Part shown: one piece after another, positions 21,776-60,845 of the stretch | Numbering within the stretch: position 1 is the stretch's first letter | How the letters are laid out: each line of letters opens with the position of its first letter | Source of the DNA: Paenibacillus timonensis | Lineage (GTDB): Bacteria; Bacillota; Bacilli; Paenibacillales; Paenibacillaceae | Reading direction: 5' to 3' | Assembly (NCBI RefSeq): GCF_009725205.1 | Contig: NZ_WNZY01000025.1 | Coordinates: 1 to 64,000, forward strand | Length of the DNA: 64,000 nucleotides | The notes under the pieces: model-generated | The model's input: the letters and a program-made list of their open reading frames with translations, nothing else | Database searches by the model: none | Told to the model about the DNA's origin: nothing | Program-made: the position numbers and the translations under genes

Positions 21776-21835
21776 GGTCGAGGACTCTGCCACTCCGCCT
21801 CTCCGCCTCCCGGTCCTCCACTCCTACCTTTGCTC

Positions 21836-21866
21836 CCCCTTTGCATGATTATCCCTATCGATCAGG
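21836..21866 (+). repeat. Left 31-bp inverted repeat of the element
   Basis: Inverted partner of 23046-23076; 28 of 31 positions identical. Confidence 0.8.
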
Positions 21867-21930
21867 ACACCAAGGATGGCGGGGATTAGAAAAAAAGAAA
21901 AGAAGAGGGATTATTCCCCTGATTTTTAAC

Positions 21931-21959
21931 TTGAAATAAGAACACATGTTTGGTATAAT
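21931..21959 (+). promoter_or_regulatory. Near-consensus promoter of the transposase-like gene
   Basis: TTGAAA (21931-21936), 17-bp spacer, TATAAT (21954-21959). This is stronger than expected for an insertion-sequence transposase. Confidence 0.75.
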
Positions 21960-22013
21960 TTAACTAATGACAGGAACGTATGTACGCATAAATTAATGGA
22001 GGGGGACGTCAAT

Positions 22014-22913
22014 ATGGAGGTTAATACAGGAATCATTGTTCAACCATTACACCGTTATAATCGTGAGCAGGACTGTATGGAGGCGCTGATCGCGATGAAA
22101 TGGCCGAACGGCTTTGTCTGCCCGAGATGTGCCTACACGCGTTGCAGCCAATTGACCTCCCGGCGTATCCCCCTATTCGAGTGCGGAAAGTGCGCGCATC
22201 AAACTTCGGCTTTGGTTGGCACCATTTTTGAAGGAACGCGCCTTCCACTGTTGAAGTGGTTTCACGCCCTAGAATTGTTCCTGCTCCCGGATGGGATCTC
22301 TGCAATGCGGTTGCACCAGGTCATTCGGGTTACTTACAAGACCGCTTGGTTAATGCTGCACAAAATACGCCATGCCGTTGGCGAATTCGACGCCCGCGAG
22401 CTATTGAGCGGGGATGTGAAGGTGAATAGCGATACATATGGTTACGATCCATCCCGGTGTAAGCTTTTCCAACCTCATGCCTCGGCTGTTATAGCTGGCT
22501 GTACGGTGACGGAGTCGGGGGAGCCGGAACAGGTCAAAATCCAGCTAATCCCTCATAAGCGTGGAAGGGAAAATAGGGCAACCCGTCATGAACTCACCGC
22601 TTTCATCAATGATCATGTGGATGCCCGTATATCCGAAGTGCATTCGTTTCCTCTGGCCTTTCAACTGTATTCACCCTTGCGGAAAGTAGTCAGAGAAGCA
22701 TGGGTGTCTTTGAAGAGTACATATATAGCCTTGGGACCAAAGCATTTGCAGGCGTATTTGAACGAGTATACCTTACGCCGCCGACTGTACTTGCTCGGTG
22801 CGAGAGAGGCGATGCACGAGAAATTGCTATGCCTGTGTGTGGCAATTCCGGCAATTCCTTATTCTCAACTGATCATGCATCATCCGAGCCGCCCTCTTTC
22901 CGCTGTAGCCTGA
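22014..22913 (+). CDS. IS1595-like transposase with eroded catalytic motifs
   Basis: 299 aa. N-terminal zinc ribbon (CPRC ... CGKC, residues ~36-65), then the helical segment usual in IS1595/ISXO2-type proteins (YKTAWLMLHKIRHAV). Where active relatives have VEVDETYVGG, this one has VKVNSDTYGYD, so the first catalytic Asp is not aligned. The middle Asp segment is shortened, and the last motif (HTNxIExFWSxLK in relatives) reads HSFPLAFQLYSPLRK, although the following PKHLQAYLNEYTLRRRL is conserved. ATG 22014 follows GGAGGGGG. An open frame with a strong promoter but lost catalytic residues suggests a defective or domesticated transposase. Confidence 0.7.
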   Translation: MEVNTGIIVQPLHRYNREQDCMEALIAMKWPNGFVCPRCAYTRCSQLTSRRIPLFECGKCAHQTSALVGTIFEGTRLPLLKWFHALELFLLPDGISAMRLHQVIRVTYKTAWLMLHKIRHAVGEFDARELLSGDVKVNSDTYGYDPSRCKLFQPHASAVIAGCTVTESGEPEQVKIQLIPHKRGRENRATRHELTAFINDHVDARISEVHSFPLAFQLYSPLRKVVREAWVSLKSTYIALGPKHLQAYLNEYTLRRRLYLLGAREAMHEKLLCLCVAIPAIPYSQLIMHHPSRPLSAVA

Positions 22914-23045
22914 TATATAGCACCATGACAACAGCGGGGATGGCTAATTGCCTTTCAACTTCCTTATCAGCTACCTAATTTCTGAAGTTATCATCCATCG
23001 GCGGCAGCTTCTTTGCTCCCTGTCAGTTAGCTCGATTACTCTGAG

Positions 23046-23076
23046 CCTGATCGTACGGGATAATCATGCAAAGGGG
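23046..23076 (-). repeat. Right 31-bp inverted repeat of the element
   Basis: Inverted partner of 21836-21866; ends 42 bp before the MFS gene stop. Confidence 0.8.
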
Positions 23077-23118
23077 TGTACAGAGGGGATTGGGGAGGGG
23101 GCACATAGGATCTATCTT

Positions 23119-24378
23119 CTATTTTTCTATCACCTTCCCTTGGTCCTTCATCGCTCGCCGGATAAAAAGGAGCGGCAGCAGGCCCATCACAATAACGACA
23201 ACGAGGAACATCGATAAACTTGTCTCCAGCCCTTCTGTTCCTCGCCGATAGATTCCGAATAGCAGCGCAACGCCGGAGATTCGCCCGGCGCTTAGTGCCA
23301 TTTCTCGCCAAACCATCAGCTCGATACGAAGACGACCACCCTGGTCCCATCGGCTGACCGCATTAAAGGTTAGCGTATTAAACGGCGTGTCGAAGAACGG
23401 CCGGGCGACCGCGTTGATCACGCCGTACAATACCAGCGTCCAGGCCGCCAGATGCGCGGTGATCCCGAGCAGGGACACCCCCATCAACAGAGCGCCGAGG
23501 ACGAGGTAACGCCAACGGTAACGATCGCGGCCGAAGCGGCCGATCAGGTAGAAGCTGGCGACGGAGAGCAACGTTGTGGCAAAAGCAAACCGGCCGGTGG
23601 CGTTCTCGCTGCCGGTCGCGAGGAACACCCAGAGCCAAATCGCGATCGTCAGTACACCGTCGCGGAAGGCTACGCCAACAAAAGCGCAGCTCAGGTGGCG
23701 CCACTCTCGATGTCGCAGCACCCCAAACAGGCTGCGCCATTCAAAAACGCCGGCAGCGGCCTGTTTCGGCAGCAACAGCGCCGCCCCCAGCGACAGCGCG
23801 AAGCACAGCAGGCTGGCAAGGAATACGGCGGCGTAGCCAGCCATCGACGGCAGGGATTCGACCAGCGCGCCGGCGATCAGCGGCCCGGCCATGCCCGTCA
23901 GCGCGCCAGCCGCGCCGTTGATGCCGTTGATGCCGTTGAACCAATTGCGGTTACCCGCTTCGGTCACGTCGATAGATAAGACGTTCATCGACATCCAGTA
24001 GAAGCCCTGGCCGATCCCGTACATCAGTCCGAGCGGTAACAGAAACTGCGGCGATTCGCTTCCCGACAAGAGAACGACGACGTAGAACAGCATTTGCACC
24101 ACGCTGCCGATCCACAGCGGTTTCGTGCGGTCCACGCGCTTGCTGAGCCAGCCGGCTGCTACGAATGCCGGCAGCCAAACCAAATACGAAGCCAGGTTGA
24201 ACAGCAGCGTTTGCGACATATCATTCGTCAATTTGTACCAGTATACATTGATAAAGATGTTGGACAAGGCGTTCCCTAACGCGTTCAGCGCGTTGACCGA
24301 TAACAGCGCCTTGGCAGGACGGTCCAAGATTGTCGTATTGCCGGATACGTGATGGGGATCCGTGATCGCCGGCTTCAT
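23119..24378 (-). CDS. MFS transporter
   Basis: 419-aa major-facilitator protein with about 12 transmembrane helices and a positively charged loop typical of MFS (WLSKRVDRTKPLW after helix 2). The start ATG 24378 overlaps the terminal TGA of the extended PHP reading frame (ATGA), indicating ancestral translational coupling; the frame upstream of this ATG has no convincing RBS. It is the last gene of the LacI/ABC/PHP operon and may export or import a product of that pathway. The substrate is unknown. Confidence 0.85.
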   Translation of the reverse strand: MKPAITDPHHVSGNTTILDRPAKALLSVNALNALGNALSNIFINVYWYKLTNDMSQTLLFNLASYLVWLPAFVAAGWLSKRVDRTKPLWIGSVVQMLFYVVVLLSGSESPQFLLPLGLMYGIGQGFYWMSMNVLSIDVTEAGNRNWFNGINGINGAAGALTGMAGPLIAGALVESLPSMAGYAAVFLASLLCFALSLGAALLLPKQAAAGVFEWRSLFGVLRHREWRHLSCAFVGVAFRDGVLTIAIWLWVFLATGSENATGRFAFATTLLSVASFYLIGRFGRDRYRWRYLVLGALLMGVSLLGITAHLAAWTLVLYGVINAVARPFFDTPFNTLTFNAVSRWDQGGRLRIELMVWREMALSAGRISGVALLFGIYRRGTEGLETSLSMFLVVVIVMGLLPLLFIRRAMKDQGKVIEK

Positions 24379-24518
24379 ACGGACTCGCCTACGGTTCCCT
24401 GCGCGATATAGACCGGATTGGTCAGGCAAGTCATGACCTCAAGGTCCCACTCGGGCAAGTATCGCCGCGCTTCCACACGGTAAAACAACCGATCCGCCGG
24501 CATTCGGAAAACGAGGTC
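24375..24518 (-). pseudogene. Cut-off C-terminal reading frame of the PHP metallohydrolase
   Basis: Immediately after the TGA at 24519-24521 the same frame continues for 47 codons (DLVFRMPADRLFYRVE ... LPEWDLEVMTCLTNP) and ends in TGA at 24375-24377, overlapping the MFS start as ATGA. The peptide reads like a natural C-terminus of the family, so the internal stop looks like a substitution rather than the true end. Confidence 0.7.
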
Positions 24519-25670
24519 TCACTCGCCCCCCTCCACGGTCCATTCCTGCTCCAGGCCGTAGTTCGACCATAGGCTAACGCGATCTCCCTGTGCACCGCGT
24601 ATCGTGATCAACAGCTCTACATCGTCCCGTCCGGGCGCTGCCTCCAGTTCATCGCCTACGCCGACCCCGTCGGCCGTCAACGTGATGAAGGCATCGTCGG
24701 GCCCCATCGACAGCACCACCGCACCACGCCTTACGGCGTCAAGCACTGCCGCAACCGTCTCTTCAGCGACGTATACATGCGCCGTTGGCACTCCGTGCCG
24801 GACGAACGGATCGTCTCGGTGCGTATCGCTGCCGCCGACAGCCACGATGCGCTGGCCTTCGGCAAGGCGCTGCTGCCACCAGGCCACCGCCGTTTCGTTG
24901 AGCTCCCGCCACGGCCCGTTCCACACCTCAATCGCATCGAAAGGTACGTCGAAGCCAAGCTCCCATGGGCAGTCCGGGCAGAACGGGTGATTCAGCGAGA
25001 CTAGCGCGCCTTTCTCTTGTGCTTGCCGGAGCTCCTTGGCCGCTGCTTCCGGAGTCAACACGCGAAAATCTGTCAACGCGTCCGGATGCCCGAGCAGGTT
25101 GGCATGGCCTTTATAGCTAGTCATCTCCACGCCGGGGATCAGCAGCAACGTTTCCTCCTGCGCCACTGAAAAGCGATTTTGCGAAGCGGTGTTGTGATCG
25201 GTGAGCGCGAGGAAATCGAGTCCTTTCTCCCGGCAGGAGGCCAGTGCCTCGCTGACTGTATAGCTTCCGTCACTGTGAACGGTATGGGCGTGCAAGTCGC
25301 CTTTAAGCCAATGCGGATGCTTTAAAGTAATCGTGATCTCAACCTCTACCAGTATCCCTTCGTCAGGGACCCGATAGGCACCTAGCAGCACCGCCCATTC
25401 TCCTGGATGGATGGGTCCGGCCAAATAACCGGGGGTTGCTTTTTCTAAACCTATCTGAAAACCGTTCCGCGCCCCGCCGCTCCAACCGATGATCCGGTCC
25501 GGTGAACGCAAGCCGAGGTCGACCACGGAACGATCGTTTTTTTCGTAGCGATATTGAACTTCGATGGACTCCGCCTCTTCCGGAACGAAAAAGGCGACCT
25601 CCGGATAACTCCGTTCTTGCTCTTGAACAAGCTGAATTTGAACTTGGTGCTCCAACCGATTCTTTGCCAT
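24519..25670 (-). CDS. CehA/McbA-family PHP-type metallohydrolase, C-terminally truncated
   Basis: 383 aa as it stands. Residues ~1-115 are a beta-rich domain. Residues ~125-330 are a PHP phosphoesterase domain with metal ligands in GDLHAHTVHSDGSYTV, LALTDHNTAS, NHPFCPDC and VGGSDTHRDD. Family members hydrolyse phosphoester or carbamate bonds using two or three metals. The frame is interrupted by TGA at 24519-24521; without it the protein would have about 431 residues. It follows two sugar ABC permeases with 18 bp spacing and precedes the MFS gene. Activity may survive, because all metal ligands lie before the stop. Confidence 0.82.
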   Translation of the reverse strand: MAKNRLEHQVQIQLVQEQERSYPEVAFFVPEEAESIEVQYRYEKNDRSVVDLGLRSPDRIIGWSGGARNGFQIGLEKATPGYLAGPIHPGEWAVLLGAYRVPDEGILVEVEITITLKHPHWLKGDLHAHTVHSDGSYTVSEALASCREKGLDFLALTDHNTASQNRFSVAQEETLLLIPGVEMTSYKGHANLLGHPDALTDFRVLTPEAAAKELRQAQEKGALVSLNHPFCPDCPWELGFDVPFDAIEVWNGPWRELNETAVAWWQQRLAEGQRIVAVGGSDTHRDDPFVRHGVPTAHVYVAEETVAAVLDAVRRGAVVLSMGPDDAFITLTADGVGVGDELEAAPGRDDVELLITIRGAQGDRVSLWSNYGLEQEWTVEGGE

Positions 25671-25688: not shown

Positions 25689-26561
25689 CTATTCCTTGCT
25701 AGCTCCCAACATGATGCCCTTCATGAAAAACCGCTGCACAAACGGGTATACCGCAATCAGCGGGAGAATCGCGATCACGATGCCGGCCATCTTTACGTTG
25801 GTCGTCACCAGATAATTGCTCGACACGCTGCTCGTATCGATGATGATCGACTTCAGCGCGACCTGCAGCGTATACTTCATGCTGTCGTTTATGAAAATGA
25901 GCGGTGCCGTAAACATGTTCCAGCGTCCGACAAACTCGAACAGCGACACGGTGGCAAGTCCAGGCGCGGCCAAACGCAAATAAATTCTAGCGAAAATCCA
26001 GAAGTCTCCTGCCCCATCGATTCGGCCGGCTTCGGCAATCTCGTAAGGGATGCCCATGAAGAAGTTCCGCATCAGCAGGATCGAAAAACCGGACACCAAC
26101 CCGGACAACACCAGTACCGTCAGCGTATTAATTAAATGAAAATCCTTATTTACCACGTACAGCGGAATCAGCACCGCTTCCTGCGGAATCATCATCGTTA
26201 GCAGAATAAACGTGATCATCCCCTTCTTTCCCGGCACATGCGGATGGATTAATACATACCCTGCCAGCGAAGACAGCAGTACGTGCAGGATCGTTCCGAC
26301 TACGGTAACGATCGCGCTGTTCAGGAACGGCCGCCATAGGTCAAGGCTCTCCCAAATCGTCCGGTAGCCCTCCGCGCTGAACTCCGCCGGAAACAGTACG
26401 ATATCCGGCTGCATCGAGGCAAGCCCCGACGAAAACGACAAAGCTAGCACGTTGAGAAAAGGAACGACCATCACAAGCATCATCAGCAGCAGAAAAAGCA
26501 GATTTATCGCGTCAAACCATTTATTTTTCCAACCCAAACGTTCGAAGCGTTCGCTCCCCAT
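25689..26561 (-). CDS. Carbohydrate ABC transporter permease (MalG/AraQ type)
   Basis: 290-aa inner-membrane permease with six predicted helices and the EAA motif (IPYEIAEAGRIDGAGDFWIF) that contacts the ATPase. It is the second permease, paired with the upstream gene 2 bp away. The cognate ATPase is not in the operon, as is usual for sugar transporters that share an MsmX-type ATPase. Confidence 0.92.
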   Translation of the reverse strand: MGSERFERLGWKNKWFDAINLLFLLLMMLVMVVPFLNVLALSFSSGLASMQPDIVLFPAEFSAEGYRTIWESLDLWRPFLNSAIVTVVGTILHVLLSSLAGYVLIHPHVPGKKGMITFILLTMMIPQEAVLIPLYVVNKDFHLINTLTVLVLSGLVSGFSILLMRNFFMGIPYEIAEAGRIDGAGDFWIFARIYLRLAAPGLATVSLFEFVGRWNMFTAPLIFINDSMKYTLQVALKSIIIDTSSVSSNYLVTTNVKMAGIVIAILPLIAVYPFVQRFFMKGIMLGASKE

Positions 26562-26563
26562 CG

Positions 26564-27442
26564 TTATCCCACCTCGTCAAATCGGGTTAATTTGCGCACG
26601 ACCAACGTCAGCGCCAGGGTGAACAGCAGTACTAGAAAGCTGGCGGCTGCGGCTACGCCGACCTGCATGTTCATGATCCCTTTTTCAAACGTATACACCA
26701 TCAATACATCGACATCCGGAGCGGTAGATGGATTGCGCAGCACAAATACCTGATCAAAGATCCGCAAAACGCCCATCGTATTCAGCAGCAAAACAACCTT
26801 CATCGTTCCCAGTAACTGGGGCAGCGTTACGTAACGAACCTGCTGCCAGCGGGATGCCCCATCCATGCGCGCCGCTTCGTAGAGAGACGGATTAATCGTC
26901 ACGATCCCGGCCATGAACAAGATACAGTTATAGCCCATGTCCTTCCAGGTCGCCACGAGGATCATCACCAAGCGGGCCCAAAATGACTCAGCCAGAAAAT
27001 GAATCGGCGGCATGCCTGCCCAGCGCTGCAGCAATAGATTAACCAGCCCGGTATCGGGAGACAGCAGGAAAATCCAGATTCCCCCGACGATTACCCAGGA
27101 CAGTAAATGAGGAATGTAGAGCACCATTTGGGCTGTTTTTTTGAAACGGGCATGCAGTACTTCGTTTAAGGACAACGCTAGCACCAGAGGAGCGACAAAA
27201 CCGAAGGCCAGGATGCCTCCCCCGATCACCAGTGTGTTCGTCAGCGACTTCCAGAAGAACGGGTCATGCCAGACCTGCGAATAATTCGCAAGCCCGGCAT
27301 ATGGACCGTCCCCCATGAGTCGATAATCCTGAAAGCTGACCTGCAGCCCTTTAACGAGCGGATAATAACCATAGATGAAAAAATAGATGGCTACCGGGAT
27401 CATCATGAGATATAAAGCTGCATGTTTTCGAAGAGCTTTCAT
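26564..27442 (-). CDS. Carbohydrate ABC transporter permease (MalF/LplB type)
   Basis: 292-aa inner-membrane permease with about six helices and an EAA loop (NPSLYEAARMDGASRWQQVR). It forms the channel with the next gene. The ATG at 27442 is preferred; a GTG four codons earlier at 27454 overlaps the AGGAT RBS. It lies 26 bp behind the substrate-binding lipoprotein gene. Confidence 0.92.
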   Translation of the reverse strand: MKALRKHAALYLMMIPVAIYFFIYGYYPLVKGLQVSFQDYRLMGDGPYAGLANYSQVWHDPFFWKSLTNTLVIGGGILAFGFVAPLVLALSLNEVLHARFKKTAQMVLYIPHLLSWVIVGGIWIFLLSPDTGLVNLLLQRWAGMPPIHFLAESFWARLVMILVATWKDMGYNCILFMAGIVTINPSLYEAARMDGASRWQQVRYVTLPQLLGTMKVVLLLNTMGVLRIFDQVFVLRNPSTAPDVDVLMVYTFEKGIMNMQVGVAAAASFLVLLFTLALTLVVRKLTRFDEVG

Positions 27443-27468
27443 GGTTATCGTCACATCCTATCTTTGGC

Positions 27469-28926
27469 CTATTCGTCGATGAGATTAGCTGCCTTCAGTT
27501 CCTTCTGCATTTGGCTCACCGCATCAGCCGCCGTCATTTCTCCGGACATGGCCTTCAGGGCGTAATTCTGCACGATTTTCTCTGCGTCGGCCCACTCCGG
27601 CAATGACAGCTCCAAAGTGGCGTACTGCTTGACCAGATCCTGCGCTTCTTGAACCCCCGGCAGCTTGCCGAACGGCGGCTTCACGGTTTCGTTGTACCAG
27701 AACGGTACGCCGTGGTCCATGTTATGCTCTTTGCCAGTCGCAGTCAGTGTGTACTGGTCGCCGTCCTTCGTGTAATCATCGCCTTCGATCCCCAGGCTGC
27801 CCAACGTAATTCCCGCTTCGGTGTGCCAAAACTCCAAGAACTTCTTCGCCGCATCCGGGTGCTCGGCATTCACTGGCATCATCCAGTAGTCCGGATCCCC
27901 GCGGCGCATCAGCAGGCTGCCATCCGGTCCTGTTGCACTGGCCAAAGCTTTGGCCTCAAACGTGGTGTTCGGGTCGGCTTCCTTCCGCGTGCTGTTGAAC
28001 ATCCCGACCCAGGCATCCCAATACGTGACCATGCCGACGCGGTCGGTCAGGAACAGGTTGCGCATCTTGCCCGTATCGTTCGTGACGAAGTTCGGGTCCA
28101 TGATGCCTTCCTTAGTCAGCTTGGCAAACCATTCGTACATCGGGATTGCCGCATCCGACGCATACGGAATCGTCCGTTTTCCGTCCTTCAGCACGTAACG
28201 ATATTTCAACCCGGCCGCGCTCATGAAGCCTTGAATATCATACAGGCCGGAGGTGCTAAGCCCGTATGTATCGGCTTTGCCGTTACCGTCCGGGTCCTGC
28301 TCCTTGAACGCCTTCAGCACGTTATAATAGTCGTCAAGCGTTTTGGGCTCCTGCAGGTTCAGCTTGTCCAGCCAGTCCTTGCGGACGATCGGCATCGTAC
28401 CGCCTTGAAACTTGGAGAATACGGCGTAGATGTTACCGTCTTGACCTTTCAGTTGATCCCATTCCGCGGATGGAACGACGCTTGGATCTGACAATTGGCT
28501 CGAACCTTGCACGAAATCCGTTATGTTAGTCAGCGCACCTTGTTCGACGAAGCTGTTCAGCTTGCCGAGGTCGCTGCCTTCGATAAGGTCGTATTTCTCA
28601 CCGGAACCTAGCGCTGTCAGCACCTTTTGGTCATAGTCGCTGGCCGGGCGCTCAATTGTCACGTCGATACCCGTTAACCGTTTGATTTCCTGCTCAAATT
28701 TGGCGTTCTCCTCCGGCGTTTTTCCGCCTACGTTGGCGGACAAGATGCGCAGCTTCATGTCCCCTGCCGGCGTTTCCGATGGCGCTCCGGTTGAAGCGCT
28801 GTTTTGTGTTTCGTTCGTCCCGCCATTCGCCGAGGTACCATTATTAGGTGTATTTCCACCGCAGGCCGACAACAGCATCGAACCAATCGCCAGCAGCGCC
28901 ATGAGATGAGTCGCTTTCCTTTTCAC
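27469..28926 (-). CDS. Extracellular solute-binding lipoprotein of a sugar ABC transporter
   Basis: 485-aa type-1 (MalE/LplA-like) binding protein. Signal peptide with lipobox LLSACGG gives the anchored Cys near residue 22, followed by a Ser/Thr/Asn-rich linker to ~55 and two binding lobes. GTG start at 28926 with GGAGG 9 bases upstream. The large size (LplA group) is typical of Paenibacillus transporters for oligosaccharides or complex sugars. It follows the LacI gene by 40 bp with no obvious promoter between, so both may be co-transcribed. Confidence 0.92.
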   Translation of the reverse strand: MKRKATHLMALLAIGSMLLSACGGNTPNNGTSANGGTNETQNSASTGAPSETPAGDMKLRILSANVGGKTPEENAKFEQEIKRLTGIDVTIERPASDYDQKVLTALGSGEKYDLIEGSDLGKLNSFVEQGALTNITDFVQGSSQLSDPSVVPSAEWDQLKGQDGNIYAVFSKFQGGTMPIVRKDWLDKLNLQEPKTLDDYYNVLKAFKEQDPDGNGKADTYGLSTSGLYDIQGFMSAAGLKYRYVLKDGKRTIPYASDAAIPMYEWFAKLTKEGIMDPNFVTNDTGKMRNLFLTDRVGMVTYWDAWVGMFNSTRKEADPNTTFEAKALASATGPDGSLLMRRGDPDYWMMPVNAEHPDAAKKFLEFWHTEAGITLGSLGIEGDDYTKDGDQYTLTATGKEHNMDHGVPFWYNETVKPPFGKLPGVQEAQDLVKQYATLELSLPEWADAEKIVQNYALKAMSGEMTAADAVSQMQKELKAANLIDE

Positions 28927-28966: not shown

Positions 28967-30001
28967 CTATCCTAGGGTTGATGCGCAGGAGCCACGTACC
29001 ACGATCTCTGCCGGAATTAGCGTTCGTTTGGCGAGACGCTTGCCGGTTTCGAGCTGCTCCAGCAAAAGCAGCATGGACTCCTGCCCCAGTTGGTCGGCAT
29101 GAAGCCGAACCCCGGTGAGGGGCGGTGAAAATTCCTGCGCCAATGGGCTGTCGTAAGCGAAGGACAACACGGACAGTTGCTCCGGTATGCTTAGGCCAAG
29201 CCGCTCCGCGGCCTGGTACACGCCTAGCGCCATCGAGTCGGTGTCGGCAAGAACCGCTGTGATGCCGGGATCCGCACACAGTTGGGCCAACACCGTATCG
29301 CAGCCAAACGTCATCGACGAGGTGATGCCGTCTGGCTTGTGTACGATCATGTCCCTCGGAGGCGCTAAGCCTGCCTGCTCAAACGCATTCAGGTAGCCTT
29401 GTCCGCGGTCAACCGCCACGGTACGGTTCGCCGGAGCATTCAGAAACAGGATGCGACGGTGCCCAAGCGACATCAGGTACTGTGTCGCTTTCGCAGCGAT
29501 ACCGACATTATCGTTGTCGACATAACAGACACGGGACTCGTCCTCCTCCGACGGACGACCGATGACAACGATGGGAAGGTCCCGCTGTAAGCAATCCTCA
29601 ATTCGGGAATCACCGATCACCGCATCAAGGATAATCTCGCCGTCCACCGGATCGGAGGCGATGTGTTCCACCTGATTTTTGTAGGTGGAAGACACGTTGT
29701 TGATTAACAGGCGATACCCTTGCTCATAACATACGGGCAGCACCCCGTTGAGCAGCGAATACTGAAACTGGTTCAGCTTCGCCTTCTGTTCGCCCCGCAT
29801 ATTCAGGCCGACGATGCGCGTCGTTTTGTTCACCAGACTACGGGCCCAGTAGTTTGGTCGGTAATTCAGCTCTTTTGCCACCCGGAGAACCTCTGCCGTC
29901 ACTTCCTTGCTGATCGGGCGTTTTTTGCTGAACACACTGGATACCGTGCTCTTTGATACCCCCGCCGCCTTTGCCACATCATCAATCGTTGCCAAGGTCA
30001 C
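28967..30001 (-). CDS. LacI-family transcriptional regulator
   Basis: 344 aa. N-terminal HTH and hinge helix (TIDDVAKAAGVSKSTVSSVF ... LNYRPNYWARSL), then a periplasmic-binding-like sensor domain (~60-340). GTG start at 30001 with AGAGGA upstream. Two AAACCGGTTT palindromes in its own leader suggest autoregulation and control of the following sugar-uptake operon; the effector sugar is unknown. Confidence 0.93.
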   Translation of the reverse strand: MTLATIDDVAKAAGVSKSTVSSVFSKKRPISKEVTAEVLRVAKELNYRPNYWARSLVNKTTRIVGLNMRGEQKAKLNQFQYSLLNGVLPVCYEQGYRLLINNVSSTYKNQVEHIASDPVDGEIILDAVIGDSRIEDCLQRDLPIVVIGRPSEEDESRVCYVDNDNVGIAAKATQYLMSLGHRRILFLNAPANRTVAVDRGQGYLNAFEQAGLAPPRDMIVHKPDGITSSMTFGCDTVLAQLCADPGITAVLADTDSMALGVYQAAERLGLSIPEQLSVLSFAYDSPLAQEFSPPLTGVRLHADQLGQESMLLLLEQLETGKRLAKRTLIPAEIVVRGSCASTLG

Positions 30002-30208: not shown

Positions 30209-31495
30209 CTAGTTATGGGTGACAACGGCGCCTGATCCGCCGTACATTTCGATGGGCTCGGCAAACTCCAGCTTCAGGACAGTGACCTGCGCATGGCAAT
30301 CCTCCGGCGTCATATATATCCACGTCGTACCCGGAATGTTAAACCAAGGCACACCGCCATGGATGTCATAGTTCAGCTCCTTGCCCGTATGGAGGACGGT
30401 GATTTTACGGATTGGATTGCATAATCCCTTTAAGCAGACGCTTTCCTTCGGATCATCGTAAACGAATAGATACAACGTCCTCCGGTCTTTGCTGAGCGTG
30501 CTTCCGCCTGACCAATACCGGGTCATAATCCCCTCGGCGGTTCCATACACCGCATCTTCGTGCGTTCGAATCCAATCGCCCAATCCAAGCAGGATATCGA
30601 CTTGTCTCGAATCGATCGTCCCGTCTTCGCGGGGACCGATATTGAGCAGCATGTTGCCGCCCATGGAAATACAGTCGCAGAACATCCGAATCATTTGGTT
30701 TAATGATTTATAGTTGTGGTCATTCGGCTGATAACCCCAAGACGTATTGATCGTCGTGCAGAACTCCCAAGGTCCTTCGGGTCTTGTGATCGGCAGCCCT
30801 TGCTCCGGCGTTTTGTAGTCTCCGTGGCCGGCTAGGCGCGAATTGAGGATGAGATCCGGGTTAAAGGAGCGAAGATAAGTTTTAAACTCCGGCAATCCCC
30901 ATTGCTCCGCGCTGCGTTCCCAGTCTCCGTCGAACCAGAGTAAATCAACTGCGCCGTACCTCGTTAAAATCTCCTTCAGCTGATTCCGATTGAACTCTAG
31001 GAAGCTCTGCCATCTCTCCTCGTCCTGGATGCCGTCCAGCGGCTCCGAGAAACGGTTAACCTGGTTCAAATCCTCAGGCACGACTCCGCTTGGATACACG
31101 CTAGGGTAGTCCGGATGCGACCAGTCAATCAGCGAATAGTACATCCCAAGCCGAATCCCCCGTTTCTTGATCGCTTCGGCATATTCCTTAACGATGTCGC
31201 GTTCGGCCGGCGTTCGCTTCACTACGCTCAAGTCGCTGTATTGAGTATCAAACAGCGCTACGCCATCATGATGTTTCGTCGTCAACACCGCGTATTTGGC
31301 CCCGGACCGCTCGATCAATTCAGCCCACTGGTCCGCATCGAACCGGGACGCCGTAAAACCCTCCAGCTGCTTCATGTATTCCTCATACGAGATCACGCCA
31401 TTATGGAAAGACCAGGATTCCGAAACGCCATCGACCGCGTAGATTCCGTAATGAATAAAAATTCCCAGTTTGGCATCTTCAAACCATGGCCGCAT
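30209..31495 (-). CDS. Alpha-L-fucosidase, GH29-like
   Basis: 428-aa TIM-barrel enzyme predicted to release terminal L-fucose from oligosaccharides in the cytoplasm (no signal peptide). The N-terminus WFEDAKLGIFIHYGIYAVDG matches the GH29 opening, and the nucleophile Asp is proposed in DLLWFDGDW. The acid/base residue cannot be fixed by eye. The ATG at 31495 is chosen because AGGGGG lies 7 bases upstream; the ATG at 31501 is too close. It stands upstream of the LacI gene but is separated from it by a terminator. Confidence 0.85.
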   Translation of the reverse strand: MRPWFEDAKLGIFIHYGIYAVDGVSESWSFHNGVISYEEYMKQLEGFTASRFDADQWAELIERSGAKYAVLTTKHHDGVALFDTQYSDLSVVKRTPAERDIVKEYAEAIKKRGIRLGMYYSLIDWSHPDYPSVYPSGVVPEDLNQVNRFSEPLDGIQDEERWQSFLEFNRNQLKEILTRYGAVDLLWFDGDWERSAEQWGLPEFKTYLRSFNPDLILNSRLAGHGDYKTPEQGLPITRPEGPWEFCTTINTSWGYQPNDHNYKSLNQMIRMFCDCISMGGNMLLNIGPREDGTIDSRQVDILLGLGDWIRTHEDAVYGTAEGIMTRYWSGGSTLSKDRRTLYLFVYDDPKESVCLKGLCNPIRKITVLHTGKELNYDIHGGVPWFNIPGTTWIYMTPEDCHAQVTVLKLEFAEPIEMYGGSGAVVTHN

Positions 31496-31527
31496 CGTCA
31501 TGCCCCCTAATGTTATTTTTCTCTCTA

Positions 31528-36968: not shown

Positions 36969-39900
36969 TTATTTCGTAAAGTCCTTGAAGATCCGGTAAA
37001 CGACGACGGCTGCTTCAGCTCGGGTCGTCAGCAATTCGGCTTCGAAGCGGTTCCCCGCTTTGCCTTTCATGATGCCAAGGCCCGTGACTTTGGCTACCGC
37101 CTCGGCGGACCAGGCCGGAATGTGGGCTTGATCGGCAAAGCCGGCAAGCTCCCCGGCTGCCCCCACAGATTGGCCCAATGCCTCCAGCGCCTTGGACAAG
37201 ACCACTGCCATTTCGCCGCGGGTAATCGGGCGATCCGGCGCGAAGATGCCGCTGGCGTAACCGCTGATCAGACCTCGGGAAGTCGCAATTTTCACAGCCT
37301 CTTCGTACCAGCTGCCTGCAGGAACGTCACTGAAACTTACCGCGCTAACTGCATTAGGATCGGCCTTCAGTTCCAGCGCCCGTACCAGCATGGATACGAA
37401 CTCAGCCCGGGTGACTTGGGTTTCGGGATGGAAGTTGCCGTCGACGGAGCCGGCAAGAATGTCCTTCGACGCCAGAATTTCGATGGCATCCACCGCCCAT
37501 GCGAATTTCGCTGGGGTGACATCGGTAAAGGTAACGTTCTTGGCCAGGTAGATATAACGGCTAAACCCGTACAGGTTGGCAACCACCTTCCCATCCTTCA
37601 ATCGTCCAAAGAATTGGTCTAATTCGCCTTTGTCTCCCAGTTTAAACAAGCTGATTTTTTCCCCTTTAATAGTCCCGGGGTTCAATGCTGTAAGTGGCAT
37701 CGCCGCTTCGGCTGGTTTGCTGAGCGTGACAGGGTCCAGCGGTTTCCCGTCTTTCGTCAAAATGTTGATATCATAATAGATTCCAAACGGTTGAATCCCC
37801 GCCGCCAGCTTCAAGCCTTCCAGCAGCTTCTTCGTATCTTCCTCGGTCGCCGGCGTGACTTGAACGTAAGCGGCCTCCGACGAAGTAATTGCGCCTGCGG
37901 GAATCGTCAGCGTAAACCCGTTCGGCAGCTTCACGACCGTAGGCTCGCCTGCCTTGATGGCTACGGCATCCTTAGGGATTGCCGGTGGAGCAGGTGGAGT
38001 AGGCGTCGTTGTTGGCGTAGAAGTGGAACCGCCGCTGCTCGATCCTCCCCCGCCGCTGCCGCCGCCATTGCCTCCTCCGCCTCCGTTGTTAGGCGGGTCT
38101 GCTGGAGTGACCGTGACGGTCACGTGTCCCACCAAACCTTGGTAGATCACGTCGATGGAGGTTGAGCCGGCCTTCACAGCCGAGATTAAACCTGTACTTG
38201 AAACGGTAGCAATCTGCGGATTTTTCGATTCGTAAACCGCATCTGTCACGGTTGTTTCGTTACCTTCCACATCCTTATACGTAACCGTTAACTGAGTGCT
38301 GGTTCCGGCTTTCAGGGACAAGGAAGCTGGCGTGACGGTCAACTCACCGCCGGTGACGGACACGAATAAATTTTTAAAAAGGTTATTATAACTGATTTTA
38401 ATCCCTGTTTTCCCCACCACTTTCCCTAACACGCTTCCATCAGTTATCTCGGCTACTTGCGGGTCCGTGATGACGTAATTCGCCAATTCCGTTACATCCA
38501 TTTCCGTCCCGTCCACCGCCCTGTAGGTTACGGTAATTGCTTGACTCTCGCCTACCTGAAGCGTTAAGTCCTCCGGATTAATGATTAGTTCCGGATACTC
38601 TTCGCCTCCAGTAGTTACGATCACGGAGACGGACTTGGTGAGGCCTTCGTGCTCGACCTCAATCGTTGTCGTTCCGGCCGCTACCCCGGTCACGTTACCG
38701 TTGGTAACTGTTGCGATGGTTGGATCCATCACGCGATATTCCGCAACTGCCGTTACATCGCTTTCCGTTCCGTCTACCGCTTTATAGGTGACGGCGAGCG
38801 TTTGGCTCTCGCCGGCTTGAAGCGTCAGCGTTTCCGGGTTCACCCGAAGCTCTGCCTGCTCTTCGCCGCCTTCGGGGGTGACGGTCACGGTTACGGTTCT
38901 TGAGAGACCTCCGAACACAACCTCAATCGTTGTCGTTCCGGCTGCTACCCCGGTCACGTTACCTTTGGTAACTGTTGCGATGGTTGGATCTACCACGCGA
39001 TATTCCGCGGCTGCCGTTACATCGCTTTCCGTTCCGTCTATCGCTTTATAGGTAACGGCGAGCGCTTGGCTCTCGCCGGCTTGAAGTGTCAACGTTTCCG
39101 AGCTCACTCGAAGTTCCGCCTGCTCTTCGCCGCTTTCAGCGGTCACTGTGACGGCAACGGTCTTAGTCAGGCCTTCGTGCTCGACCTCGATCGTCGTCGT
39201 TCCGGCCGCTAGGCCCGTCACGTTCCCGGCATTCACTTCAACTATCGCCGGATCCGTTACACGATAAATTGCTGCTGTGGTTACATCGCTTTCCGTACCG
39301 TCTACCGTCTTATAGGTGACAGCGAGCGCTTGGCTCTCGCCGGCTTGAAGTGTCAGCGTTTCCGGGCTCACTCGAAGCTCCGCCTGCTCTTCGCCGCCTT
39401 CGGCGGTGACGGTCACGGTTACGGTTCTTGAGAGACCTTCATGCACAACCTCAATCGTTGTCGTACCTTCCGCTACCCCGGTCACGTTGCCGTTGGTAAC
39501 TGTTGCGAGGGTTGGATCCGCCACACGATATTCCGCTGCTGCCGTTGCATCGCTTTCCGTTCCGTCCGCCGCTTTATAGGTGACGGCCAGCGCCTGGCTC
39601 TCGCCTACATGCAGCGTCAGACTCTCCGGGCTTACCCGTAGTTCCGGCTGTGTAACGTGGTTGTACTCCACAACATGAGCCGGATCCCAATACCCATTCC
39701 CGGCCAAGTCATAGACGTAAACCTCGTAATAATTGTCTCCAGGTAAAACCGGAACATCGATTTTGAAGTTCCCTTGATTATCGATAGTCCCTATGCTTGT
39801 TTCAACCTCGCCAAATGCGTTCAAATACAGCGCTTCGACGCCAATCACAACGTCCATATCCAGTCCGCCGGCGGTGACCAGATAATTGATCAGCATATCC

Positions 39901-42704
39901 TCTGTAACTTCGCCGTAAATGACCCCGGTTTGACCGGTGCTCTTCACTTTTAATGCCGGCTCGTTAAGCTTGGATACCGGTGCTGAGGTGTCAACGAAGA
40001 ACACGTAGGCTGAATCTTCTGATGGAACGGAATCGAACATGGACGTGCCGGTATAAGGGACCAGCAGGTATTCTCCATCGGGAAGCGCTACTTCCTCGTC
40101 AAATTCATCAAGAATCCTTCCATCCCATCCGCTTAACGTGTAGCTGTCAGGACTAACCCCTCCATCCGTTTGGAAGACCACGCCTAGCCAAGTTCCATCG
40201 ATATCATGCACTTCCAACGAAAAATACTCGGCATATTCGTTCACCGTAAACGAGATATCCGTGGTATCAAACAGCTCATCGTCGTTCGGCGAGATCGGAT
40301 TGTTCGACAGTTCTACGTCCGTCACAACATCCTGCTGCGGTGTATCGCCGACATAAACCGCTACCGGTAGTTTGATCTCATGCCCGGTCGTCGTCTCCGT
40401 CAAAATCACTTCGCCTTCGTATCGCTGGTTTGCCGCTTCTTCCGGCACCGCAACCTCGACGTCGAAGCCGGTTTCCCCGCCCGCGCTTAACGCTGCTTCA
40501 GAAGCAGACAGTGTCAGGTCTATCGGTGAATTCCCATACCACTGCGAGCGAATCGCGTAATTCGAGGACTCGCCGGCAATGTCTTTGACGATCACATGTT
40601 GTTCGGCAGAGAAGCCGTTACCGACGTACCCAAACGACAAGCTGCCCGTATAAAAAGTTTCCGGGGCCTCCCCATCAACGTAAGGCGTCGAATCCTCCAC
40701 CATCGCTACCGCTTTGGCCTCGAGCACCTGATCCAGCGCGATCCGTCCGGCTCCCTGATCCATATGCGTATAGCGGTCACCGTTTCGATCGTTTAACTTC
40801 ACAGTATTATTCATGAATAACGACTTGATTTCATAAGGCGTCAAGTTTGGATATTTCTGCGCTGCAAGTGCCGCCGCGCCCGTAACATGCGGTGCGGCCA
40901 TGCTGGTGCCGTTTTGGGCGGCATACCAATCCTCATATTCCGGTACGCTGGAGCGGATGCTCATCCCCGGCGCGGAAATATCTGGTTTGATGTCATATCC
41001 CGGTTTGGCCGGTCCACGCGAGCTGAATCCTGCCATAATATCTTCTTCTATCGTCGAACTGAACTCGGCGGACAACTCCTGCGCTTGCAGAGCGGTCCGA
41101 ATTCGTTCTCCATAAACCCCGGAAAGGGCGTACACCGGGATGTTAATCTCCACGTTCCCCAACGTCCCGCTTTCCAATGCTTCTGGCGCATTGTTAAACA
41201 CAATTGCAGCCACGGCGCCTGAAGCTTGGGCGTTCAGGGCTTTATCCGCAAAGGAGATTTCGCCGCGTTTGATGAAGGCAATTTTACCGGTTAAATCCTT
41301 ACCCGTATAATCTCCCGGCTTGCCTAACCCGACATCGACCAGCGGGTAAGAATCCGTCAAATTCTCGATTCCCGCGGACTTATCGAACGTCTCCATAAAG
41401 AAGCCTTCCTCGCCCATCGCCGCAATCTGCATGATCGGCGTGACGAGCGGCGGCTTGGAGGCGCCGACGGTAATTGCTAACTCCGAAGTGCCCGGATCAC
41501 TAACGGTAGCAGACCCAGGTCCGGAGTTGCCACTGGAGACGACGGCCACAACGCCCGCTTTCATCGCATTGTTGACCGCAATCGAATCGGCGGAGCGCTG
41601 GTTATTGGTCTCCGAACCCAGCGACAAGTTAATGACGTCCATTCCGTCCTCCACGGCCCGCTCGATTCCGGCGATCACGTCCTCCGTCGAACCGCTGCCG
41701 TAAGGCCCCAACACCTTATAAGCGTAAACCTCCGCTTCCGGCGCAACCCCTTTAACACCAGCCAGATCGTCCTTACCGATGCCGCGTCCGGCTACGATGC
41801 CCGACACATGGCTGCCGTGCGAGGTATAGTAAGGTCTACCGTCTGAGTTGAATTCGGGTTGTCCCGAACTCAAGAAATCATCGTAAGTCGTTTCATAGGG
41901 ATCATTATCCTCGTTGACGAAGTCATATCCCCAATATCCGTCAGGAATGGCTTCCGCCAAATCGGGATGGTCCTTGGCTGCGCCGGTATCGATCACGCCG
42001 ACCTTAATGCCTTGGCCTTCGGTCCCTTCCTCCCAGAACGACCCGCTGCCGATGAATGACACGCTGTCCAACGGTGCGGCCGGAACCTCTTCTGCCTCGG
42101 TTGCATAAACCGTCTCATTCGGGTATATCGCCTTGACGCCCGGAAGCTTCAGCAGGCTTTCCACCTCGTTAGCGGGAATCGTCAACGAATACCCATTGAA
42201 AATATGTTCGTATTCGCGGTGAATGTTCGCCTTCAGCTTACTAACCGCTTGCGTCTTGAACGTTTGCTGTTGCAAATCGATCGCTTTTCTGTGGGAGCTC
42301 AGCGACTGGCTCGAACGCGCTTTGCTCTGCGAAACTTCAAACACCTTCAAAGGTGCTTCCTGCAGCTCGACGATCACCGTCGTTGGTTCGCTGCCATCCG
42401 TAAGCGGCACGAAGTTTTGGGGCTGAACCGCAGACGCCTCGGCATCCCGGCGCTCCAGAGTTAATCCGTTGTCCACAGCGGAGGACTGCCCGGAAACTTG
42501 CCGTTTCTCTCTACCGCTGAGCTGAACCCTCGCGGCCTGATCCCGCAGCACTTCCTGGGTCACTACATCTTGATTCAGCCGGGGAATGCCTTCCCTCCTT
42601 CCGTCGGCTCCCGCCAAAGCGCCGCCTTCCGCTCCCGCCATCGGCAGCAGCAGCGTAAACGCCAGGATGAAGCTTAAGATTCCTGCGACGACTCTCTTGC
42701 TCAA
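36969..42704 (-). CDS. Giant S-layer-anchored subtilisin-like serine protease
   Basis: 1911-aa secreted protease. Signal peptide 1-27; I9-type propeptide ~105-205; S8 domain ~220-635 with the catalytic triad Asp in GVIDTG (~239), His in SHGSHVSG (~296) and Ser in NGTSMAAPHVTG (~601); a PA domain inserted at ~455-540. Fn3-like regions follow, then six bacterial Ig-like repeats of about 88 aa (four nearly identical), a Gly/Ser/Pro linker, a ZU5-like beta domain and three SLH domains at the C-terminus. The SLH domains anchor it to the cell wall. Start TTG 42704 is preferred because GAGGGAG lies 7 bases upstream and it begins the signal peptide exactly; ATGs at 42737 and 42728 add a charged tail. 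Confidence 0.9.
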   Translation of the reverse strand: MSKRVVAGILSFILAFTLLLPMAGAEGGALAGADGRREGIPRLNQDVVTQEVLRDQAARVQLSGREKRQVSGQSSAVDNGLTLERRDAEASAVQPQNFVPLTDGSEPTTVIVELQEAPLKVFEVSQSKARSSQSLSSHRKAIDLQQQTFKTQAVSKLKANIHREYEHIFNGYSLTIPANEVESLLKLPGVKAIYPNETVYATEAEEVPAAPLDSVSFIGSGSFWEEGTEGQGIKVGVIDTGAAKDHPDLAEAIPDGYWGYDFVNEDNDPYETTYDDFLSSGQPEFNSDGRPYYTSHGSHVSGIVAGRGIGKDDLAGVKGVAPEAEVYAYKVLGPYGSGSTEDVIAGIERAVEDGMDVINLSLGSETNNQRSADSIAVNNAMKAGVVAVVSSGNSGPGSATVSDPGTSELAITVGASKPPLVTPIMQIAAMGEEGFFMETFDKSAGIENLTDSYPLVDVGLGKPGDYTGKDLTGKIAFIKRGEISFADKALNAQASGAVAAIVFNNAPEALESGTLGNVEINIPVYALSGVYGERIRTALQAQELSAEFSSTIEEDIMAGFSSRGPAKPGYDIKPDISAPGMSIRSSVPEYEDWYAAQNGTSMAAPHVTGAAALAAQKYPNLTPYEIKSLFMNNTVKLNDRNGDRYTHMDQGAGRIALDQVLEAKAVAMVEDSTPYVDGEAPETFYTGSLSFGYVGNGFSAEQHVIVKDIAGESSNYAIRSQWYGNSPIDLTLSASEAALSAGGETGFDVEVAVPEEAANQRYEGEVILTETTTGHEIKLPVAVYVGDTPQQDVVTDVELSNNPISPNDDELFDTTDISFTVNEYAEYFSLEVHDIDGTWLGVVFQTDGGVSPDSYTLSGWDGRILDEFDEEVALPDGEYLLVPYTGTSMFDSVPSEDSAYVFFVDTSAPVSKLNEPALKVKSTGQTGVIYGEVTEDMLINYLVTAGGLDMDVVIGVEALYLNAFGEVETSIGTIDNQGNFKIDVPVLPGDNYYEVYVYDLAGNGYWDPAHVVEYNHVTQPELRVSPESLTLHVGESQALAVTYKAADGTESDATAAAEYRVADPTLATVTNGNVTGVAEGTTTIEVVHEGLSRTVTVTVTAEGGEEQAELRVSPETLTLQAGESQALAVTYKTVDGTESDVTTAAIYRVTDPAIVEVNAGNVTGLAAGTTTIEVEHEGLTKTVAVTVTAESGEEQAELRVSSETLTLQAGESQALAVTYKAIDGTESDVTAAAEYRVVDPTIATVTKGNVTGVAAGTTTIEVVFGGLSRTVTVTVTPEGGEEQAELRVNPETLTLQAGESQTLAVTYKAVDGTESDVTAVAEYRVMDPTIATVTNGNVTGVAAGTTTIEVEHEGLTKSVSVIVTTGGEEYPELIINPEDLTLQVGESQAITVTYRAVDGTEMDVTELANYVITDPQVAEITDGSVLGKVVGKTGIKISYNNLFKNLFVSVTGGELTVTPASLSLKAGTSTQLTVTYKDVEGNETTVTDAVYESKNPQIATVSSTGLISAVKAGSTSIDVIYQGLVGHVTVTVTPADPPNNGGGGGNGGGSGGGGSSSGGSTSTPTTTPTPPAPPAIPKDAVAIKAGEPTVVKLPNGFTLTIPAGAITSSEAAYVQVTPATEEDTKKLLEGLKLAAGIQPFGIYYDINILTKDGKPLDPVTLSKPAEAAMPLTALNPGTIKGEKISLFKLGDKGELDQFFGRLKDGKVVANLYGFSRYIYLAKNVTFTDVTPAKFAWAVDAIEILASKDILAGSVDGNFHPETQVTRAEFVSMLVRALELKADPNAVSAVSFSDVPAGSWYEEAVKIATSRGLISGYASGIFAPDRPITRGEMAVVLSKALEALGQSVGAAGELAGFADQAHIPAWSAEAVAKVTGLGIMKGKAGNRFEAELLTTRAEAAVVVYRIFKDFTK
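38589..39644 (-). repeat. Four tandem 264-bp repeats in the protease gene
   Basis: The 88-codon Ig-like unit (ELRVSPESLTLHVGESQALA ... ) recurs with a 264-bp period, e.g. GCCTGCTCTTCGCCG at 38854, 39118 and 39382. Protein-level differences between units are few, pointing to recent duplication; two more diverged units lie beyond 38589. Confidence 0.85.
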
Positions 42705-42823
42705 ACTCTCATCTCCCTCACCATTCATAGTTTTCAAGGAGCCTATACAAGCTGATACCTTTATATCTATTGGTGAGGTTTCAATATATTCCCATTCTCA
42801 TGGTAAGAAAGCATAATAAGGAT

Positions 42824-60092: not shown

Positions 60093-60188
60093 CTAAATGC
60101 TATAGCTGAGCTCGGGGGTAATTCGTTTCAGGAACTGCTTCGTCCGTTCTTCGCGTGGATGGTACAGCAGCTCCGTCGGACTCCCCTC
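60093..60188 (-). pseudogene. Cut-off C-terminal reading frame of the TcyN-like ATPase
   Basis: After TAG at 60189-60191 the same frame stays open for 31 codons (EGSPTELLYHPREER, then TKQFLKRI) and ends in TAG at 60093-60095. This is the normal C-terminus of a polar-amino-acid ABC ATPase (usually IVEEGSP or IVEQGSP), so a Gln or Glu codon has become a stop. Confidence 0.85.
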
Positions 60189-60845
60189 CTAGACGATCAC
60201 GCCGCCGTCCATGAACACGGCATGGTTGGCCACGTCCCGGGCAAACCCCATCTCATGGGTCACGACGATCATCGTAATCCCTTCTCTGGCGATCTTGCGA
60301 ATGACCTCCAGCACTTCGCCGACAAGCTCGGGATCCAGAGCCGACGTAGGTTCGTCGAAAAGAATCACCTCCGGCTCCAAGGCCAGTGCCCGGGCAATGC
60401 CCACCCGTTGCTGCTGCCCTCCCGACAACTGGCTCGGATAGGCGTCCAGCTTGCTGGCCAGACCAACTTTCTCCAACAGCTCAATGCTGCGGGCTTTGGC
60501 TTCTTCCTTCGGCATTTTTTTGACGATGACCAGACCTTCCATCACGTTCTCCAGCGCAGTCTTATGCTTAAACAAGTTATATTGTTGAAACACCATTGCC
60601 GACTTTTGGCGGAGGGCATGAATGTCTTTCTTCGTCGCCCGGTTGCAGCTTAGTTGGAAGTCACCGATCGCAATCTCGCCGCCGCTGGGTTTCTCCAGAT
60701 AGTTGATGCATCGCAGAAGCGTTGTTTTGCCGGAACCACTCGGACCCAAAATGACTACGACATCGCCTTGGTTCACCGTCAGATCAATCGACTTTAACAC
60801 CTGCTGGCGCCCAAAGGACTTAGAAATGTGACGAAGCTGAATCAT
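60189..60845 (-). CDS. tcyN: Polar amino acid/cystine ABC transporter ATPase (TcyN-like), truncated by in-frame TAG
   Basis: 218 aa as it stands; about 250 if the stop at codon 219 were sense. Walker [12 protein letters not shown] (~34-44), signature [20 protein letters not shown], Walker [14 protein letters not shown] and H-loop [10 protein letters not shown] are all intact before the stop. The lost part is the final ~31 residues of the fold. It would energise import with the two permeases and binding protein upstream; ATGA overlaps couple it to them. Either a weakened ATPase, a pseudogene or a readthrough product. Confidence 0.85.

Follow-up and report, generated by a model that had tools for sequence, protein, structure and literature searches.

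The gene for a metallohydrolase of the CehA/McbA family (PHP-type) in this genome is likely to be a recent, lineage-specific nonsense allele. It lies in the window, the 64-kb stretch analyzed here, which is the beginning of a contig of 72,264 bases in a draft genome of 5.12 Mb and 81 contigs. On the minus strand, the ORF starts with the ATG at 25670 and runs for 383 codons until an in-frame TGA, located in the last ninth of the gene and directly 3' of a G run. The position and nature of this TGA, as described in an earlier note made from the sequence, were correct on re-reading. The next in-frame stop beyond codon 384 is the TGA at 24377-24375, and it lies within an ATGA whose ATG (24378-24376) opens the ORF 24378-23119 of an MFS transporter. 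The features are as follows.

24519..25670, minus strand: CehA/McbA-family metallohydrolase, shortened ORF, 383 aa, NF038032 216.7 bits, profile positions 1-267 of 315
24519..24521, minus strand: in-frame TGA, hydrolase codon 384, with a stop at this site in none of the frames of the 14 long homologues
24378..24518, minus strand: 47 sense codons left of the ancestral hydrolase frame, encoding the three final strands of the C-terminal sandwich and the last part of the predicted strand before them
24375..24378, minus strand: ATGA overlap of the ancestral hydrolase stop and the MFS start, shared with P. mellifer and P. barengoltzii
23119..24378, minus strand: MFS transporter of 419 aa with an open frame; dN/dS of 0.12 relative to P. 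mellifer

The assignment to the family is indicated by the NCBIfam profile NF038032, with 216.7 bits for the shortened ORF and 233.9 bits for the frame read through the TGA, against the curated cut-off of 80 bits. The match ends at profile position 267 of 315 in the shortened ORF, which lacks the complete C-terminus, and at 314 of 315 in the read-through frame. The Pfam PHP domain is also recognized (28.8 bits; cut-off 26.4).

Some match to the hydrolase was found in 39 of the 40 genomes searched from the genus Paenibacillus. The long, closely related form is present in seven of them, including the present genome, and the other six show no internal stop. A search of genome contigs revealed 11 loci, three of which are the same records as in the genus search, giving 14 distinct long homologues in total from Paenibacillus, Cohnella, Sporolactobacillus, and an archaeal (Thermofilum) bin. 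All 14 frames are open up to a C-terminal stop that follows an NP[IV]Y motif near the end, those from Sporolactobacillus and the Thermofilum bin included, and none of them ends at GGE, a natural end that the earlier note had named as evidence against an interruption. Thirteen of the 14 were aligned, and the remaining one (G024) was read without alignment. The residues opposite codon 384 are Leu (4), Gln (3), Arg (2), Gly (2), Ala (1), and Asp (1), in a column that is only loosely aligned for distant relatives.

The 47 codons beyond the TGA are 83% identical to P. mellifer (47 residues), 86% identical to the P. timonensis orthologue (43 aligned), and 76% identical to P. barengoltzii (46 aligned). 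Judged by these alignments, the tail is homologous coding sequence and not a chance open frame, as was suspected from its family-like appearance. The proposal that an intact gene, translationally coupled to the MFS gene, has been cut by a nonsense codon is thereby supported: relative to intact orthologues, the probably disabling change is seen in the present genome and in none of the 14 long homologues. No title on this hydrolase gene in Paenibacillus was included among the literature matches listed.

Three amino-acid changes in the tail were assigned to the present branch since the split from P. mellifer, and at most one more is ambiguous. If the tail had been unconstrained throughout, 14.7-18 changes are expected, and the probability of four or fewer is 0.0011 to 8.6e-5. 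These are too few changes for a tail untranslated since the split; therefore, the stop is either of recent origin or leaky, or it stems from an assembly error. The P. mellifer branch, on which the tail is translated, was assigned four changes. Relaxed constraint after the TGA was not detected in this comparison, which is compatible with a young lesion. The dN/dS against P. mellifer is 0.12 for the upstream body of the hydrolase and 0.29 for the tail. The higher value of the tail is no sign of decay because stop-free relatives show the same tendency, with tail values of about 0.23 between P. mellifer and P. timonensis and 0.43 between P. mellifer and P. barengoltzii. In a rough test with one change subtracted from the C-terminal count, the C-terminal part did not change faster on the present lineage than in P. 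mellifer (Fisher p = 0.71). The lack of an excess of tail changes on the present lineage is a point against a nonsense allele. It is explained by a recent origin, and would also be explained by an assembly error or some readthrough.

The predicted structure suggests what the stop would do to the protein. The AlphaFold2 model, built from the intact orthologue of P. mellifer and an alignment of 12 sequences, has a mean pLDDT of 86.9 and a pTM of 0.88. Codon 384 falls within the predicted strand 372-391, and the strands 396-405, 410-417, and 420-424 come after it; the block-mean pLDDT is 89-97 for residues 381-420 and 62 for 421-430. The invariant columns of the alignment are all upstream of the stop, the last being residue 339; later columns could not score as invariant because the alignment includes the shortened protein. 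On this model, the shortened protein would keep the metal-site and catalytic half without a complete C-terminal beta sandwich. As the end of the sandwich is missing, the 383-residue protein is probably unstable or inactive.

The reading as a nonsense allele thus proposes the following course. A nonsense mutation would have arisen recently in the last ninth of the gene in a single lineage, so that translation would normally end at codon 384 and yield the 383-residue protein, retaining the metal-site half and probably disabled by the loss of the sandwich end. The old tail would still look coding because the mutation is young. Ribosomes that formerly ended on the ATGA would now stop 141 bases upstream of the MFS start, by which coupled re-initiation is probably weakened. 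Loss of the translational coupling to the MFS gene, as proposed in the earlier note, is a reasonable expectation. It is most likely that the enzyme is dispensable, that the allele is young, and that the event is of an ordinary kind.

The MFS gene itself is under constraint, with the dN/dS given above, and therefore, it may not depend on coupling to the hydrolase. The MFS gene was looked for at 14 loci, some with short flanks: a long match was found at four, a 27-residue stub at one, and none at nine. A possible MFS start directly follows the hydrolase stop in G020 and G038. In P. barengoltzii, the MFS protein is matched over its first 27 residues only, and no MFS match was found at the locus of the P. 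timonensis orthologue, where about 320 bases of contig remain beyond the hydrolase. Adjoining the MFS end, an ORF on the plus strand (21996-22913) has a single Pfam domain at E <= 0.001, the zinc ribbon of an IS1595-type transposase. The region 21777-23144 gave no blastn match longer than 150 bases in the stretches of P. mellifer, P. barengoltzii, and P. timonensis compared.

Upstream of the hydrolase, the following genes are encoded.

25689-26561, minus strand: ABC permease of a sugar-type transporter, open frame
26564-27454, minus strand: second ABC permease of a sugar-type transporter, open frame
27469-28926, minus strand: solute-binding protein of a sugar-type ABC transporter, open frame
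25689..28926, minus strand: the sugar-type ABC transporter as a whole unit, two permeases and the solute-binding protein
28967..30001, minus strand: LacI-family regulator, open frame
30209..31501, minus strand: alpha-L-fucosidase, 430-codon ORF, open in the window

The permeases, solute-binding protein, LacI regulator, and fucosidase are on one strand; thus, these neighbours indicate that the hydrolase locus is probably an oligosaccharide-uptake operon. The alpha-L-fucosidase orthologue of P. mellifer (L046, C1 about 63841-65130) is interrupted by an in-frame TAG at the place of codon 411 of the ORF in the window, followed by a conserved tail of about 20 codons. As read from the two sequences, this TAG is an independent nonsense event at the same locus. 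The MFS stub in P. barengoltzii and the fucosidase stop in P. mellifer together suggest that parts of the locus are dispensable in this clade.

The frequency of interrupted genes was estimated by comparing the present contig and contig C71 (329 kb) with 420 kb of P. mellifer. This comparison replaced a survey of PF00005 in four genomes, a domain that does not cover the C-terminus. Depending on the direction, 243 or 248 ORF pairs were obtained, and 230 or 231 of them passed a third-position filter; a few shadow frames remain among these. In the 329 kb of the present genome, three C-terminal nonsense codons (TGA, TAG, and TAA) were found, each followed by conserved sequence. Besides the hydrolase, they are the following.

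60096..60845, minus strand: ABC ATPase, TAG at codon 219 and 31 conserved codons after it, shortened ORF 60845-60189
C71 163813-164286, plus strand: 157-codon gene interrupted by TAA at codon 146, with the 11 codons beyond it conserved

The earlier note had also pointed to the TAG near the C-terminus of the ATPase, and it was confirmed; the 31 codons beyond it match P. mellifer at 94%, with a dN/dS of 0.14. The ATPase (60845-60096) has an ABC_tran domain and is presumably of the amino-acid-transporter type by its resemblance. The P. mellifer sample contains one nonsense interruption, that of the fucosidase. Two probable frameshifts were recognized in the present genome (C71 at about 67121 and 38422), in genes that form single ORFs of 535 and 605 codons in P. 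mellifer and two ORFs apiece on C71; P. mellifer has at least one probable frameshift, in the counterpart of a 369-codon gene of the present genome. The total is about five interrupted genes of 231 in the present genome (about 1-2%) and somewhat fewer, at least two, in P. mellifer. A further candidate interruption in P. mellifer, corresponding to C71 255334-256269, stands outside this count.

Several classes of ORFs were left out of the nonsense count: those with a stop near the N-terminus, as start-site differences; those with the stop no more than nine codons from the end (at 155 of 158 or 421 of 423, for example); and several multi-stop ORFs that are probable shadow frames. ORFs of 208 and 173 residues were likewise left out: they pass the third-position filter but overlap other ORFs that are open in the two genomes, and they probably represent shadow frames. 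So were a 127-residue ORF with 22, 9, and 6 changes at codon positions 1, 2, and 3, and a 491-residue P. mellifer ORF with a stop at codon 188 in the present genome, whose changes at the three positions number 42, 11, and 4 in the first 220 codons and 14, 7, and 72 after them.

Two of the nonsense codons are in the 72-kb contig and one is in 256 kb of C71. The probability of two or more in 72 kb, calculated by hand, comes to about 0.14 with the pooled rate and to 0.03 if the C71 rate is used; the two genes are at most a mild cluster, and chance can explain them. The late positions of the stops are the expected outcome of weak selection against late truncation. The unusualness that the earlier note implied finds little support in this comparison: genes with interruptions account for about 1-2% of those sampled in the present genome and for a slightly smaller share in P. 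mellifer. Elsewhere in the window, a 1922-aa subtilase with SLH and Big_2 domains is encoded at 36969-42737 (minus strand), with 3.8 copies of a 264-bp tandem repeat at 38640-39650; the counterparts of this ORF have 1648 residues in P. mellifer and 1742 in P. timonensis.

A sequencing or assembly error, in which the true codon is a sense codon and the gene is intact, is unlikely. The TGA is known from the assembled sequence of one draft genome in many contigs, the hydrolase tail is otherwise intact, and the TGA directly follows a G run, after which short reads can be poor. The present genome also has more interruptions than P. mellifer (three nonsense codons compared with one, and two probable frameshifts compared with at least one). 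However, a homopolymer indel would be insufficient, as a substitution is required, and P. mellifer has the same kind of event. The genome has a completeness score of 99.98% and contamination of 0, scores that do not assess single bases.

Leaky reading of the UGA, in which a few per cent are read as Trp, enough full-length enzyme is produced to keep the tail under selection, and the stop serves as a dosage brake, is decidedly unlikely. It would account for the conservation of the tail. According to the available part of PMC7918605, in-frame stops with dN/dS below 1 are widespread, and 6% readthrough is cited there for catA86-TGA in a prfB+ strain of B. subtilis. In addition, the tRNA-Trp (CCA) of the present genome (L100 1160-1233) has an apparent A at position 24 in the author's own numbering, the base of the Hirsh G24A UGA-readthrough variant as presented in the available part of PMC13092985. 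The shortened tRNA-Trp anticodon stem described there was rejected, since the stem reads as canonical 5 bp. A low general leakiness of UGA in this genome is possible. On the other hand, the stop is found in one species only and in none of the 14 long homologues, which does not fit programmed readthrough with a stop conserved across species, and Trp is at the site in none of the 13 aligned relatives. RF2 is present (prfB match of 539.8 bits). One in-frame TAA is reported within the prfB match in all four genomes searched, and RF2 genes often have a programmed frameshift. Among the 231 coding-like ORFs sampled that have a counterpart in P. mellifer, both interrupted genes of the window included, 116 end in TAA, 59 in TGA (the shortened hydrolase among them), and 56 in TAG; TGA, TAG, and TAA all serve as terminators in the present genome. 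A more specific version, in which the TGA is a young leaky brake, readthrough by the A24 tRNA-Trp keeping the tail selected and upstream termination lowering the coupled MFS expression, is very improbable.

Other ways of decoding the stop were rejected. Positions of tRNAs were found with Rfam and anticodons with ARAGORN, with 150 of 214 first-look candidates scored in the draft genome. All 70 detected tRNAs have sense anticodons, and UCA, CUA, or UUA is found in none; a suppressor tRNA was thus rejected, and it was right that a single one could not explain both the TGA and the TAG. Reassignment of UGA was rejected with RF2 kept and 59 of 231 ORFs ending in TGA. Selenocysteine at codon 384 was rejected with Cys in none of the 13 aligned relatives and tRNA-Sec among none of the 70 tRNAs; a partial SelA match (PF03841) above the Pfam cut-off (46 bits, positions 55-275 of 367) was observed, and a match of this type is present in all four genomes searched. 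Re-initiation at the ATG six codons past the TGA would yield no more than a 42-residue fragment and offers no useful explanation. Recoding thus looks unsupported, and the gene does not look like a case of a new way of reading the genetic code.

A functional protein of 383 residues whose new end is tolerated or adaptive is highly improbable: the invariant columns end before the stop, albeit in an alignment whose shortened row hides later ones, and the body shows no relaxed constraint (dN/dS 0.12), but the lost tail with its NP[IV]Y motif is present in all 14 long homologues and the cut falls inside a predicted strand.

With the recent nonsense allele as the preferred reading, the hydrolase should be annotated as truncated (a probable pseudogene) or resequenced, and its function cannot be assumed in the present strain. 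In a modest way, it also illustrates how sister species lose different genes from what is probably a catabolic locus (LacI regulator, sugar-type ABC transporter, hydrolase, MFS transporter, and fucosidase).

Among structures, Foldseek matched the intact P. mellifer model best to PDB 3e38 (BVU_3505), a two-domain PHP-like phosphoesterase, with 18% identity and a TM-score of 0.39 by query length, indicating a distant relative only. The in-frame stops in the available part of PMC7918605 are similar in that the gene keeps a coding appearance beyond its internal stop, and a Paenibacillus example is also described there; that work focuses on stops common to two or more species, whereas the TGA of the hydrolase comes from a single genome. 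The gene resembles the CehA/McbA family (NF038032; PHP superfamily) in its score above the cut-off, its PHP domain, and the C-terminal tail of the read-through frame, and it differs in that its ORF stops at profile position 267 of 315. Its closest known relatives are the orthologues from P. mellifer (L032), P. timonensis (L033), and P. barengoltzii (L034), which are 91%, 85%, and 84% identical, respectively, lie in syntenic neighbourhoods, and continue through codon 384 without a stop.
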